From Terriglobales bacterium (GTDB lineage Bacteria; Acidobacteriota; Terriglobia; Terriglobales; Acidobacteriaceae): a DNA stretch of 64,000 bases. The stretch is taken from contig JAOAPE010000006.1 in NCBI GenBank assembly GCA_025462725.1, positions 1 through 64,000 of the forward strand, in the 5' to 3' direction. Below, one piece after another: positions 40,336-43,948 of this stretch. Under the pieces are notes generated by a model. It saw only the letters and a program-made list of their open reading frames with translations, searched no databases and was not told where the DNA came from. Position 1 is the first letter of the stretch, and each line of letters starts with the position of its first letter. The position numbers were made by a program, and so were the translations under genes.

Positions 40336-41127
40336 ATGAAAATCGCAATCGCATTTCTGCTCGCCACGCTCATTGCGTCGTCATCCTTCGCGCAGAGTGC
40401 TCCCGAACATTCCCTCGCTATCACGCATGTCACGATCATTGACGTGAATGGCGGGCCTGCGCGGCGGGACATGACGGTAGTAGTGCTCGATGGTCGCATC
40501 ATGAGCATCGGGCCGAGCAAAGCGATGCGAATGTCAGCAAACATTCGCACTGTCGATGCAAGCGGCAAGTTCCTCATCCCCGGCCTCTGGGACATGAACG
40601 TCTATCTCGATACGGACGAGGCTGAAAAGTCTCGCTTGGCAGACTTTGTTGCGAATGGCATAACCGAAGTTCGCATTATCAGCGGCGGCGCACAGCTTCA
40701 GCAGTGGAACAAAGATATTGAAACTGGAAAGCTGCTTGGCCCCAGGATGATGATCGAAGGTGCCGAGTTCGACGAATCGGAGAAACATCCCGTTAATGCG
40801 GTCCCTGCTGCATTGCAATCCAGGCACAACTGGCACGAAGAGCTAAGAATGCTGGTGCAATCAGGATCAACGCCACTGGAGGCTTTGCAGTCAGCGACGG
40901 TGAATGCCGCGAAGTTTTTCAACAAATCGGATTCCATGGGCAGCATCGCCAAATGGAAGTTTGCTGACATGATCGTGCTGGATGCCAATCCGCTGGATGA
41001 CATCCGGAACACCACCAGGATCAGCGCCGTAGTGATCAGGGGCAAACTGCTGGATCGCAAGCAGCTCGATGCCATGTTGGACGAAGTTAAGACCGCCGAA
41101 CAGGCAAAGTCAGAAATGCACCGATAG
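40336..41127 (+). CDS. Truncated, probably inactive amidohydrolase-like secreted protein
   Basis: From ATG 40336 a signal peptide (MKIAIAFLLATLIASSSFAQ) leads into the N-terminal beta-sandwich of amidohydrolases (ITHVTIIDVNGGPARRDMTV) and FLIPGLWDMNVYL, where active enzymes have GLWDMHVHL. Both metal His are replaced. The chain then jumps to the C-terminal part (TPLEALQSATVNAAKFF; GSIAKWKFADMIVLDANPLDDI). With 263 residues it lacks most of the TIM barrel of the ~430-residue family. No stop or frameshift disturbs it, so it may be a stable non-catalytic derivative. The next gene starts 58 bases later. Confidence 0.75.
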   Translation: MKIAIAFLLATLIASSSFAQSAPEHSLAITHVTIIDVNGGPARRDMTVVVLDGRIMSIGPSKAMRMSANIRTVDASGKFLIPGLWDMNVYLDTDEAEKSRLADFVANGITEVRIISGGAQLQQWNKDIETGKLLGPRMMIEGAEFDESEKHPVNAVPAALQSRHNWHEELRMLVQSGSTPLEALQSATVNAAKFFNKSDSMGSIAKWKFADMIVLDANPLDDIRNTTRISAVVIRGKLLDRKQLDAMLDEVKTAEQAKSEMHR

Positions 41128-41185
41128 GTGGAAGCTTCCGCAGTTGCAGTTGCGTCTGTGCGAAAACCAGCTAGAATCCTCACCC

Positions 41186-42742
41186 ATGAGGCTGACCAGA
41201 TTCCTGCTTGTGCTTGCTCTTGCCGCCCCCACATTCGCCCAAAACACATCTTCAAAAACAAAATCAGTTTCCAAGCTCACCCCCGAGCAGCGGACCGCCA
41301 AGTACATGGAATCCATCCGCACTCAGCCGCCTCTCTTACGCGGATTTCTCTACGCCATGCCCAAGGGTGGCGATCTGCACAACCACCTCAGCGGATCGAT
41401 TTACGCCGAAAACCATATCGCTAGAGCGGCGAATGCTGGATTGTGCGTCAACCTTGCCACTCTGACTTTTGTTCCTCCAAAGCAAGTTGCCGGTGAACCG
41501 AATTGCGAGGACAAAACACAGCGCCCGGCTACAGATGCGTTGCGTGATCCCGGACTGTACAGCCAACTCATTGACGCATTCTCATTGCGGAACCACAGCC
41601 CTGCGCGCAAGCCGGGTGAATACCAGTTCTTTGACACCTTCCTCAAATTCGACGCTGTCACCAAGCCGCCCTTTGGCGCGATGCTCGCCGAGGTCGCGCA
41701 TCGCGCCGCATTGCAGAACGAGCATTACTTGGAATTGATCTATTCGCTCGACGGTGGCGTAGCGTGGGCGCTCGCCGACAAGACTCCCTGGCACTCCGAT
41801 GCCGATCTCGCTGGATACCGCCAGCGCTTGCTCGATGCCGGACTCACCGAATCCACAAAGAAAGCCAAAGCGATGATCGACGAAGCCGAAGCGGCGATGC
41901 ATCGCGAGCTAAAATGCGGAACTCCTAATGCCGACGTAGGCTGCGATGTGCAACTCCGCTACATCGCTCAAATCCTCCGCGCATTCAGCAAAGAACGCGT
42001 CTTTGCGCAGACCGCCGCCGGATTCGAGATCGCCAACTCTGACAAGCGAGTCGTGGGAATCAACATGGTCCAACCCGAAGACTGGCTTGTACCCATGCGC
42101 GATTACGACCTGCACATGCGCATGGTCGGATACCTGCACAATGAATATCCCAAAGTGAATATCACCCTGCATGCGGGCGAACTCACCTTCGGCCAGGTGC
42201 CTCCCGAAGAACTCGGACGCCACGTCCCGCGCGCCATAGACACCGCCCATGCGCAGCGCATCGGCCACGGAACCGACGTCATGTATTACCTCGATGCCGA
42301 AAATCTCCTGAAAGAGATGGCGCAGAAGCGCATTGCCGTCGAGGTCTCGCTAAGCAGCAGTGACATGATCCTTGGAATTCGCGGCCCTCAGCATCCCTTC
42401 CGCCACTATCTGCAGGCCGGAGTGCCCGTAGTTATCGCCACGGATGATGAAGGCGTCTCTCGTTCCGATATCACACAGGAGTATCAGCGCACAGCAGAAG
42501 AACAGAGCGCAACCTACGCCGAACTGAAACGGATATCCCGCAACAGCGCGGAATACAGCTTCCTTCCCGGCCAAAGCCTCTGGGCAGATGCGACCTCGTT
42601 CAAAGTGAACGAACAATGCGCGAAAGAGTCTCCAGCAAAAAAAACGTCTCAAGGATGCGCGGATTTCTTGCAAGCAAACGAGAAAGCGCGCGAGCAGTGG
42701 AAGCTGGAACAACGTTTCGCGGTGTTTGAGGGCAAGTGGTAG
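41186..42742 (+). CDS. Secreted adenosine deaminase-family protein
   Basis: The start is ATG 41186, giving a signal peptide (MRLTRFLLVLALAAPTFAQ); the reading frame runs further upstream but without reason. The 518 residues carry the deaminase metal site HNHLSGS, HAGE, GHG and the Asp pair in VVIATDDEGVSRS. It therefore probably deaminates adenosine or a related base in the periplasm, for nucleoside scavenging or signalling; eukaryotic ADGF/CECR1 enzymes are secreted relatives. It follows the amidohydrolase-like gene and ends just before the GIY-YIG element. Confidence 0.88.
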   Translation: MRLTRFLLVLALAAPTFAQNTSSKTKSVSKLTPEQRTAKYMESIRTQPPLLRGFLYAMPKGGDLHNHLSGSIYAENHIARAANAGLCVNLATLTFVPPKQVAGEPNCEDKTQRPATDALRDPGLYSQLIDAFSLRNHSPARKPGEYQFFDTFLKFDAVTKPPFGAMLAEVAHRAALQNEHYLELIYSLDGGVAWALADKTPWHSDADLAGYRQRLLDAGLTESTKKAKAMIDEAEAAMHRELKCGTPNADVGCDVQLRYIAQILRAFSKERVFAQTAAGFEIANSDKRVVGINMVQPEDWLVPMRDYDLHMRMVGYLHNEYPKVNITLHAGELTFGQVPPEELGRHVPRAIDTAHAQRIGHGTDVMYYLDAENLLKEMAQKRIAVEVSLSSSDMILGIRGPQHPFRHYLQAGVPVVIATDDEGVSRSDITQEYQRTAEEQSATYAELKRISRNSAEYSFLPGQSLWADATSFKVNEQCAKESPAKKTSQGCADFLQANEKAREQWKLEQRFAVFEGKW

Positions 42743-42762: not shown

Positions 42763-42815
42763 TGTCATCCTGAGCGGAGCCGCGAAGCGGCGAAGTCGAA
42801 GGATCTATGTATTTT
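42763..42815 (+). repeat. Left inverted repeat of the GIY-YIG element
   Basis: It reads TGTCATCCTGAGCGGAG, then a central part with GCCGC-GAA-GCGGC (42779-42791), then GCGAAGTCGAAGGATC and TATGTATTTT. The outer 17 and the inner 26 bases match the reverse complement of the right repeat exactly; only the centre differs (10 bases against 4). Confidence 0.9.
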
Positions 42816-42823
42816 GGGAATAT

Positions 42824-43153
42824 ATGCAAAATGACCATAGGTACCACGTCTACATCATGACCAACCGCTCGCGTAATTTGTATGTAGGCGTGACTAGCAA
42901 GCTGATGATCCGAGCGATTCAACACAAGGAAGGAACATACGGCGGTTTCACATCCAAGTACAAGCTAGATCGCCTTGTCTACTACGAAGTGTTTACCCAA
43001 GTCCAGAATGCAATAGCACGTGAAAAACAACTAAAGGGTTGGAGCAGAATAAAGAAGATTGGTTTGATCGTATCCATCAACCCCGCGTGGAAAGATTTGA
43101 GCGAAGAGTGGGGAAAGTCTTTCTTGCCTCTGGTCCGCCGCGAAAATACATAG
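42824..43153 (+). CDS. GIY-YIG family endonuclease
   Basis: A 109-residue single-domain protein. The motif pair is V9-Y10 (HVYIMTN) and Y20-V-G22 (LYVGVTS), a GIY-YIG variant. R30 and H34 (MIRAIQHKEG), E55 (VYYEVF) and REKQLKGW (66-73) complete the active-site pattern of the short UvrC-N-like group. The C terminus INPAWKDLSEEW is usual for this group. The last codons come from the right inverted repeat. Homologues in many genomes are annotated only as GIY-YIG nuclease; what they cut is not established. Confidence 0.88.
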   Translation: MQNDHRYHVYIMTNRSRNLYVGVTSKLMIRAIQHKEGTYGGFTSKYKLDRLVYYEVFTQVQNAIAREKQLKGWSRIKKIGLIVSINPAWKDLSEEWGKSFLPLVRRENT

Positions 43154-43189
43154 ATCCTTCGACTTCGCTGCGCTCCGCTCAGGATGACA
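43143..43189 (-). repeat. Right inverted repeat of the GIY-YIG element
   Basis: It begins AAAATACATAGATCC and ends CTCCGCTCAGGATGACA. It contains the nuclease stop codon at 43151-43153. Compared with the left copy it lacks a 6-base piece of the central palindrome, as expected of arms evolving through hairpin slippage. Confidence 0.9.
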
Positions 43190-43282
43190 CTGATGCATTT
43201 GCTTTTCAAAGCCTAGATTCTCAGTCTCTTTCCCAATTGCTTCCCATCGTGTAGCGTTGTAATCTGCATCTGCACAATCCTC

Positions 43283-43948
43283 ATGGCGAATTTTTTCGAA
43301 CTGCCCCGCTACATAGCTGTCGAAGGTCCCATCCGAGTGGGCAAGAGCACGCTGGCACAGATCATTGCCACGCAGATGAATGCGCAGCGCGTGATCGAGC
43401 CAGAAGGAAACAGCTTTCTGAAATCTTTCTACGAAGGCGACGCAGGCGCGGCCTTCCAGACACAGTTCTCATTTCTAATCGCGCGATTCGAGCAACTCAA
43501 GGCACTTGAGGCCGGACCAACGTCGCAGAAGCGCATCGTCGCGGATTACATCTTCGAAAAGGACAAACTTTTCGCCTGCATCAACCTCACTGACGCGGAA
43601 CTTGAGATTTACAATCGGTACTACAACCACTTTCGTGAGCACCTACCTACACCGGACCTAGTCATTTATCTTCAGGCATCGCCAGAGGTGCTTAAAAAGC
43701 GATTGCAGAAGAAGAATGCTCCGGGCGAAGCTGGCGTCAGCGAGGATTACATTGAAGAAGTCGCGAAAGCCTACGAGCACTTCTTCTTTCATTACACCGC
43801 TTCAGACCTTCTGGTCGTAAATACCAATGACATTGATTTCGTTGACCGCGATCAGGACCTCAAAGAGCTTCTCCGCCGCCTGAATGAGCCGATAAAGGGT
43901 ACTCAGTATTACCTGCCGCTCTCGGGCGAGGCTGCGGCCAGCGCTTAG
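43283..43948 (+). CDS. Deoxynucleoside kinase
   Basis: A 221-residue kinase of the dGK/dAK type that phosphorylates deoxynucleosides for salvage. The P-loop is GPIRVGKST (residues 15-23). ADYIFEKDKLFA holds the acidic residue and Arg/Lys region of the family, and PDLVIYLQASPEVLKKRLQK starts the lid. The start is ATG 43283. In related genomes such a gene often follows folK; here the GIY-YIG element lies upstream instead. The next gene is panB. Confidence 0.88.
   Translation: MANFFELPRYIAVEGPIRVGKSTLAQIIATQMNAQRVIEPEGNSFLKSFYEGDAGAAFQTQFSFLIARFEQLKALEAGPTSQKRIVADYIFEKDKLFACINLTDAELEIYNRYYNHFREHLPTPDLVIYLQASPEVLKKRLQKKNAPGEAGVSEDYIEEVAKAYEHFFFHYTASDLLVVNTNDIDFVDRDQDLKELLRRLNEPIKGTQYYLPLSGEAAASA

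Follow-up and report, generated by a model that had tools for sequence, protein, structure and literature searches.

A repeat-nuclease-repeat unit in a Terriglobales bacterium: a putative GIY-YIG counterpart of RAYT elements

INTRODUCTION

Ssn enzymes, which are site-specific single-stranded-DNA nucleases of the GIY-YIG superfamily, were reportedly described by Chenal et al. in 2025. In that study, they are said to cut single-stranded DNA at a repeat of which Neisseria carries hundreds of copies, and to modulate transformation.

REP repeats are widespread in bacteria. Their GTAG superfamily has a known partner enzyme, whereas the CGTC superfamily was said in 2013 to have none: in the portion of that paper drawn on here, CGTC REPs "apparently lack a dedicated transposase," and CGTC units flank no RAYT or other IS200 transposase gene (Di Nocera et al. 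2013, PMC3733652). The same portion describes CGTC tag variants that include TGTC and CCTC, a complementary AT at the first and second stem positions, and four named families with a stem of 8 to 9 bp, a loop of 4 to 5 nucleotides, and a CCA tail; the Neisseria family CGTC-1 is dRS3 (PMC3733652). We searched the open-licence literature, preprints excluded, and found nothing linking GIY-YIG with REP, RAYT, or repetitive extragenic palindromic repeats; the portion of PMC12306157 consulted mentions neither GIY nor nuclease.

Here, we describe a 427-bp stretch in which two inverted repeats enclose the gene for a small GIY-YIG nuclease. It lies in a stretch of 64,000 nucleotides, which we call the window (contig JAOAPE010000006.1 of the Terriglobales assembly GCA_025462725.1, positions 1 to 64,000, forward strand). 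Sequence comparisons lead us to think that this is probably a repeat-nuclease-repeat unit that resembles RAYT elements but is based on a GIY-YIG enzyme acting on its own repeat.

RESULTS

Two inverted repeats enclose a single small nuclease gene

The features of the locus, in window coordinates, are as follows.

41069 to 42742, plus strand: adenosine deaminase family gene (PF00962, E 5.8e-26), the left neighbour, context only
42763 to 42815, plus strand: left repeat, consisting of a TGTC tag, the 5' arm ATCCT, a variable centre, the 3' arm AGGAT, and the tail CTATGTATTTT toward the gene
42824 to 43153, plus strand: gene for the 109-amino-acid GIY-YIG nuclease, called as an open reading frame and by Pfam, with its stop within the right repeat
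43143 to 43189, minus strand: right repeat of the ATCCT/AGGAT type, inverted relative to the left one and with a shorter centre
43193 to 43206, plus strand: ATGCATTTGCTTTT, just beyond the right repeat, tail-like and resembling the tails of other copies by eye
43283 to 43948, plus strand: deoxynucleoside kinase gene (PF01712, E 9.5e-32), the right neighbour, context only

The unit spans 427 bp in the spacer between the adenosine deaminase and deoxynucleoside kinase genes. Through a repeat search and direct reading, we found that the outer arms (42763 to 42780 and 43172 to 43189) are complementary over 18 nucleotides at 100%. The inner arms (42787 to 42815 and 43143 to 43171) are complementary over 29 nucleotides at 97%, with 26 consecutive identical bases. 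The original prediction, made from the letters alone, had given 17 and 26 identical bases around a differing centre, which holds to within one base. It had also placed exactly one gene for a 109-residue GIY-YIG nuclease between the repeats, with the stop codon in the right repeat and a total of 427 bp, and all of this was confirmed: 42824 to 43153 is the sole open reading frame of at least 60 amino acids lying wholly inside the outer ends of the repeats, and its TAG stop (43151 to 43153) falls inside the right repeat. Three further mechanically called open reading frames overlap the unit and extend beyond the repeats.

The conserved part of the window repeat is the short basal stem ATCCT/AGGAT. 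As single-stranded DNA, the two window repeats are not unusually stable hairpins (z of -0.41 and +0.60); folded as RNA, the left repeat has a z of -1.17 and the right a z of +1.02. The stretch ATGCATTTGCTTTT at 43193 to 43206 is possibly a remnant of an older repeat copy at the insertion site.

The repeat is dispersed through its own genome

The genome that contains the window (G000; 4.33 Mb in 91 contigs) holds the full unit once and the repeat many times. A 14-base head pattern, TGTCAYYCYGAGCG, has 74 matches there, and the reversed pattern used as a control has 0. At the unit itself, the longest perfect inverted match between the upstream and downstream sides is 26 bases, compared with a maximum of 10 across 20 shuffles. 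Therefore, pairing of the flanking repeats by chance is excluded. The repeat is dispersed and is not peculiar to the window, and solo copies, which had been expected elsewhere, far outnumber units: about 70 other heads compare with one repeat-gene-repeat unit. In its own direction, the repeat reads TGTC, ATCCT, GAGCG, a variable centre, CGA, AGGAT, CT, and a tail such as ATGYATTTG. Of 150 genomes of its family, Acidobacteriaceae, 141 contain TGTCAYYCYGAGCG, whereas the reversed pattern never exceeds one match per strand in a genome.

Pfam detects three GIY-YIG matches in this genome, namely, the window gene, a frame of UvrC length, and a weak partial match. A protein search of the genome returned, besides the window gene, the C-terminal part of a second gene (C51:433192-433341; 40% identity over 50 residues, E 1.3e-6). 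This second gene (L325, contig C51, about 433100 to 433400) is decayed, with a broken frame, and by the head rule there is no repeat head of the window type in the 3.1 kb around it. Upstream of it, two stretches with CATCCCGAACG resemble, by eye, worn repeats minus the tag.

The same genome also carries a second repeat sub-family that shares the TGTCATCC head and has a GAAGGATCT-like end, a centre like CCTTGTTTCTGGCG, and the tail TGCGCTTAGC. Its copies lie on contig C4 at 51872, 60520, 191109, 262654, 264190, and 331467. We found no intact GIY-YIG gene for this sub-family in the genome.

The nuclease is a conserved single-domain protein

The 109-amino-acid protein matches the Pfam GIY-YIG domain (PF01541) over residues 7 to 76 with an E value of 8.5e-13; it has no other Pfam domain and matches none of the NCBIfam models. 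Fold and conserved residues both place this single-domain protein in the GIY-YIG superfamily. The residues invariant across 40 relatives include Y10, G22, R30, H34, R66, E67, and N86. An AlphaFold2 model made from 40 relatives has a mean pLDDT of 87.4 and a pTM of 0.78. Its best fold match among solved structures is the UPF0213 protein 1zg2 (E 1.6e-4), followed by Slx1 (E 0.007), and the GIY-YIG domains of UvrC are weak fold matches. By sequence, 1zg2 is again the best match among solved structures (E 3.6e-10). We found no phage homologue at an E value of 1e-6 among 50,697 records.

We calculated dN/dS for 11 gene pairs. The ratio was 0.046 to 0.075 in seven of them, with a dS of at least 1.9 in four of these seven, and in the other four pairs dS was not computable. 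Judged by these ratios, the protein is under purifying selection.

Inward-facing repeats flank most homologous genes

We scored gene loci for a repeat head facing the gene within 300 bases upstream and 320 bases downstream. The first set comprised 98 loci, with the window's own (L012) counted, taken from among the matches listed; 95 came from Acidobacteriaceae or from records titled Acidobacteriota, and three came from MAGs labelled Chloroflexi, Verrucomicrobia, or Chthoniobacterales. Loci L043, L045, and L050 (on the same contigs as L023, L024, and L143), L092 (equal to L040), L117 (two tandem genes), and duplicates of the window's own locus had been dropped before this count. An inward repeat was present upstream at 77 of the 98 loci, downstream at 78, on both sides at 68, and on neither side at 11, and an outward arrangement was also contained in 13. 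In the second set, 54 loci that were fetched later and scored by the same rule, inward repeats lay on both sides at 41 and on neither side at 5.

Combined, the two-sided inward layout is found at 109 of 152 gene loci, window included. It is missing at 43, and at 16 of these both sides are missing. Flanks were cut by contig ends at only 3 of the 152 loci, no two of which are identical. Thus, both of the patterns that the original prediction had named as refuting it are absent: the repeat is dispersed, and the homologues are not repeat-less genes at one conserved locus; repeats flank the genes, and the loci differ. At L020, L025, L029, L053, L110, and L116, a repeat pair lies on each side, which gives four repeats per gene and a larger version of the unit.

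These counts bear on an alternative in which a Y1/RAYT enzyme mobilises the repeats in trans as REPs and the GIY-YIG gene is cargo captured between two of them. Y1-type genes are indeed at hand, having been found in six of the six genomes searched (six matches in the window's own genome), and repeat-rich genomes without a GIY-YIG relative exist. However, flanking repeats are found at only 1 of 30 Y1/RAYT loci (of 37 matches), even under a wider rule of 400 bases, versus 109 of 152 GIY-YIG loci, and repeat type tracks the GIY-YIG clade. We therefore regard a Y1/RAYT mover as improbable.

Repeat types match across the gene and follow the protein

Four stem types dominate the repeats: ATCCT, ATCCC, ATTCC, and ATTCT. 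The rarer ACCCT and ACCCC occur once each in the first set, as matched pairs, and ATCCA occurs once in the second. The left and right stem types are the same at 61 of the 68 two-sided loci of the first set (shuffle mean 21, maximum 35 in 10,000) and at 36 of the 41 of the second (shuffle mean 15.5, maximum 27), which makes 97 of 109 for both sets together. This matching is also seen within single genomes: in the 11 genomes that have at least two two-sided genes, left equals right in 29 of 32 cases versus 16 expected, and none of 10,000 within-genome permutations reached 29 of 32.

With the matched types, the notion that gene and repeats are accidental neighbours, the gene merely lying within a repeat-rich spacer, can be weighed. 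In its favour, repeats are common and mostly intergenic. However, of 717 pseudo-gene positions scored by the same rule along C4, a contig rich in repeats, none showed the layout; the types match at 97 of 109 loci, and the arrangement recurs in other phyla. We give accidental proximity almost no credence.

The two stem arms covary at their three inner positions. Pairing is perfect in 151 of 164 repeats, with a shuffle maximum of 78, in a set of 175 repeats for 11 of which the 3' arm was not found. A narrower stem rule gives 72 of 76 paired and leaves out 103 repeats; the wider rule is the one used. The first stem pair is A-C in many copies across relatives, ending GGAC.

We mapped repeat type on a protein tree of 60 typed rows, which is built on few columns and, in its 98-row version, has many unsupported forks. 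Type changes 17 times on this tree, compared with a mean of 27.9 and a minimum of 21 in 1,000 shuffles. On this measure, repeat type agrees with protein clade. Two loci with broken frames, L052 and L053, were excluded from the 60-row tree and from the residue 68 comparison below and were included in the 98-row version. The dispersal of the repeat, its inverted and type-matched flanks, the covariation of its stem, and the agreement of type with clade can all be read directly from the DNA.

Residue 68, beside the invariant E67, was considered as a code for repeat specificity and was rejected as a general one. In the first set, it is K at 44 of 45 ATC-type loci and not K at 9 of 13 ATT-type loci. 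In the second set, in which L184 is without the motif, it is K at 31 of 31 ATC-type loci, T at the single ATTCC locus, and K at 3 of 3 ATTCT loci. The rejection is due to these three ATTCT loci, to there being only two independent tree pairs on supported branches, and to N. gonorrhoeae, where residue 68 is K though the repeats are ATTCCC.

Homology ends at the repeats, and sites are filled or empty in relatives

In the genus of genome G143, all 14 other units match the G143 query only within bases 733 to 1158 of its 1885 (matches of more than 100 bp counted; the unit occupies about 733 to 1147 of the query, and the fetched stretches include flanks). The units of this genus are 68 to 75% identical at different loci, with the homology ending at the repeats. 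Long shared flanks are found only inside four groups: G165 and G151; G171 and G082; the second unit of G143 and G175; and G174, G172, G173, G186, and, in part, G161. Thus, the 15 units occupy about eight loci and otherwise pass to descendants without moving. Some out-of-group pairs share up to about 160 bp more upstream, where another repeat lies, and at most about 12 bp downstream. These comparisons suggest that the unit moves as a block, and rarely. In genus g7, with the L107 flanks as the query, we saw no clean empty site among the matches listed; the search gave unit-limited homology instead.

At the window locus, two genomes of the genus are filled (G000, the window's own, and G090) and two are empty (G023 and G125); the locus was not found in G145. 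The G000 and G090 proteins are 71% identical, and G090 has ACCCT repeats on both sides with an extra copy on the right. By eye, the right flank is common to G090 and G125, and in kinase DNA G023 is nearest to G000 (85% versus 79 and 77%). Therefore, in each near pair one member is filled and the other empty. Beyond the unit itself, filled sites carry about 20 to 55 bp more per side than empty ones, and by eye we saw no target-site duplication at the unit ends and empty sites. The comparison of empty sites that the original prediction had suggested thus shows filled and empty forms within the genus, but the two differ by more than the unit. Unit-limited homology, filled and empty sites, and purifying selection are likewise properties of the compared sequences themselves.

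A different account of the same data is that the protein is a domesticated host nuclease of the Ssn type that acts on single-stranded DNA. The dispersed repeats would then be its addresses, for example, in limiting or shaping DNA uptake or recombination, and the flanking repeats would mark or regulate its own locus and would not be a vehicle for movement. Purifying selection and persistence at one locus in species groups are as this account expects, and so are the N. gonorrhoeae homologue, which lies among dRS3-type repeats in both orientations, and what is reportedly known of Ssn. It does not fit well with units that are 68 to 75% identical at different loci and whose homology ends at the repeats, with filled and empty sites in one genus, or with several genes per genome that have different repeat types. 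We consider a purely domesticated nuclease unlikely, though a serious contender.

Distant homologues lie among CGTC REPs

We searched a plasmid collection with the protein (tblastn). This matched 34 records, 18 of which were examined for flanking repeats. The inverted repeat around the gene exceeds all 20 shuffles in 15 of the 18, in two of them barely. Inward [CT]GTC-tagged repeats lie on both sides within about 300 bases in 13 of the 18, a count in which two Shinella represent one locus in related strains, as do two Sphingobium. The two-sided cases in Proteobacteria are Neorhizobium, Rhizobium CIAT894, three Shinella, Novosphingobium, two Sphingobium, Azospirillum, Aeromonas, and N. gonorrhoeae; those outside are Spirosoma (Bacteroidota) and Planktothrix (Cyanobacteria).

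The left and right repeat types differ in Planktothrix, Aeromonas, and Spirosoma. Repeats in both orientations, with outward-facing copies nearest the gene, occur in N. gonorrhoeae, Spirosoma, and Planktothrix. In S. meliloti, one flank carries a tagged repeat and the opposite flank an inverted copy of the stem; Methylobacterium has an inverted repeat of another kind at the gene. We found no tagged pair at the gene in Photobacterium, Sinorhizobium K101, or R. tumorigenes. The N. gonorrhoeae relative, with 47% identity and surrounded by dRS3-type repeats in both orientations, is presumably an Ssn homologue.

In Planktothrix agardhii plasmid p1 (L267), the GIY-YIG gene and TGTC-type repeats lie between an MmeI-type restriction gene and DISARM drmA. 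The records NZ_CP119140.1, NZ_CP119142.1, and NZ_AP026896.1 (2.2 and 4.9 Mb) are filed as plasmids and are chromosome-like in size.

The repeats at the distant homologues are CGTC REPs, for example, CGTCATCCTCGGGCTTGACCCGAGGATCCA and, in N. gonorrhoeae, CGTCATTCCCGCGCAGGCGGGAATC. The window repeats resemble CGTC REPs, as these are described in the portion of PMC3733652 drawn on here, in three respects. Both window repeats and other copies carry TGTC, which is an allowed form of the tag. The first two stem pairs are A-T and T-A (ATCCT/AGGAT). Homologues of the gene lie between canonical CGTC repeats, including in two species that are named in that paper, A. lipoferum, where both sides carry them, and S. 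meliloti, with its one tagged side. Unlike the CGTC REPs described there, the window repeats combine a basal stem of about 5 bp with a long, variable centre and a tail reading CTATG. Because stem, loop, and tail differ, we file the window repeat as related to the CGTC REPs and outside their four named families, on that description.

Repeat number, orphan repeats, and strand bias

We compared repeat numbers between genomes with and without the gene. The median was 39.5 repeats in the 94 genomes with it versus 6.5 in the 56 without it (p 8e-10), and the number of gene matches correlates with the number of repeats (rho 0.56). Nine genomes without a gene match nevertheless carry at least 30 repeats, three of them (G037, G079, and G099) being less than 90% complete; G032, a single contig, has 153. 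All nine keep a GIY-YIG frame of UvrC length, and only G109 has another small GIY-YIG frame, which is dissimilar. Thus, repeats can outlive the nuclease gene or spread without it. We infer that the repeats in the nine genomes are orphans after gene loss. Four of these genomes (G032, G115, G079, and G109) hold 66 to 153 copies and have no nuclease match; their repeats may be orphans or may have another mover.

In 76 of 79 cases, the TGTC strand of the repeat coincides with the C-rich strand, based on GC skew within 5 kb with the repeat excluded and on stretches some of which were picked for containing repeats. These stretches were C4 and parts of C42, C56, and C75 from the window's own genome and parts of G023, G145, and G032. 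On C4 alone, skew agrees with the repeat strand in 30 of 31 cases. GC skew usually mirrors replication direction, and strand bias at forks is known for elements using single-stranded DNA. The bias is therefore consistent with repeats that enter one strand at forks or are selected on it. It serves only as a clue, because the GC skew of these genomes is itself odd.

Transcription as the cause of repeat orientation was rejected: the nearest long open reading frame is co-stranded in 20 of 31 cases on C4. A simple two-replichore picture was rejected since the sign of the skew changes many times. Gene strand explains little of the skew flips on C4. There, the skew, at 0.1 to 0.2, is negative to 60 kb, positive to about 150 kb, negative to 280 kb, and then positive. 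Skew also flips often in 20 stretches (L152 to L171) from the single-contig family member G032.

DISCUSSION

On the reading that we prefer, a RAYT-like unit with a GIY-YIG enzyme, the tag and the short stem would let the protein recognise the type of repeat found on either side of its gene. The protein would cut one strand at the repeat, most likely when this is single-stranded during replication. GIY-YIG enzymes hydrolyse DNA and are not known to rejoin it. Since a GIY-YIG hydrolase should not complete the step alone, copying and joining would be left to host repair. Host repair or copying of the cut product would yield mainly solo repeats, in trans, and by the same route the whole unit would rarely reach new loci. 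Recognition, cleavage, the single-stranded substrate, and the copying step are what we infer from the patterns described above.

Several observations count against this reading: the nine repeat-rich genomes without the gene, the 43 of 152 loci without the two-sided layout, the outward repeats, the difference between filled and empty sites beyond the unit, the orthologous units in place, the weak hairpins, and the failed residue 68 code. It is slightly weakened as well by the decayed second gene without repeats and by the outward inner repeats in three distant homologues. The mobile unit of the original prediction is thus partly supported: it gains from the dispersal, the flanked homologues, and the filled and empty sites, and it loses from the units inherited in place and the gene-less genomes rich in repeats.

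A bolder proposal is that the whole CGTC/TGTC REP superfamily has its missing dedicated enzymes in the small GIY-YIG nucleases and that the units form a transposon-like class. Such a class would spread by the cutting of single strands at replication forks and would use no DDE, HUH, tyrosine, or serine recombinase. We hold this proposal to be tentative, its chances falling a little short of even. It spans Acidobacteriota, Proteobacteria, Bacteroidota, Cyanobacteria, and MAGs labelled Chloroflexi and Verrucomicrobia. The pattern gives the CGTC superfamily a concrete candidate partner, with gene and repeat types matched within single genomes. Therefore, how CGTC repeats spread can be put to the test with a single protein of about 100 residues. 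The homologues also supply a natural series of enzymes with apparently different repeat specificities. From these comparisons, the nuclease is a good candidate for the spreader of a large class of bacterial repeats.

How does the unit compare with known systems? Like RAYT (TnpA-REP) genes with their REP/REPIN repeats, it is represented by one or a few genes per genome with inverted tagged repeats at the flanks, by many solo repeats elsewhere, and by persistence by descent. Unlike RAYT, it has a GIY-YIG catalytic domain and not an HUH/Y1 domain: only PF01541 was found in the protein, and PF01797 was not. The tag is TGTC/CGTC as opposed to GTAG, and no covalent joining step is expected for a GIY-YIG enzyme. 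The unit shares with GIY-YIG homing endonucleases of the I-TevI type the nuclease domain and sites that are filled or empty in relatives. It differs from them in that it has no intron or intein and no separate DNA-binding domain, is bounded by repeats, and lies in a spacer. The UPF0213 single-domain GIY-YIG proteins (PDB 1zg2 and 1ywl) are similar in size and were deposited as hypothetical proteins.

As with Ssn, a small GIY-YIG protein is tied to a many-copy repeat that also lies beside its gene, and the repeat would be its cognate one. The Ssn work reportedly stresses the cutting of single-stranded DNA and the modulation of transformation. By analogy, the biochemical core of the window nuclease would resemble the Ssn nucleases.
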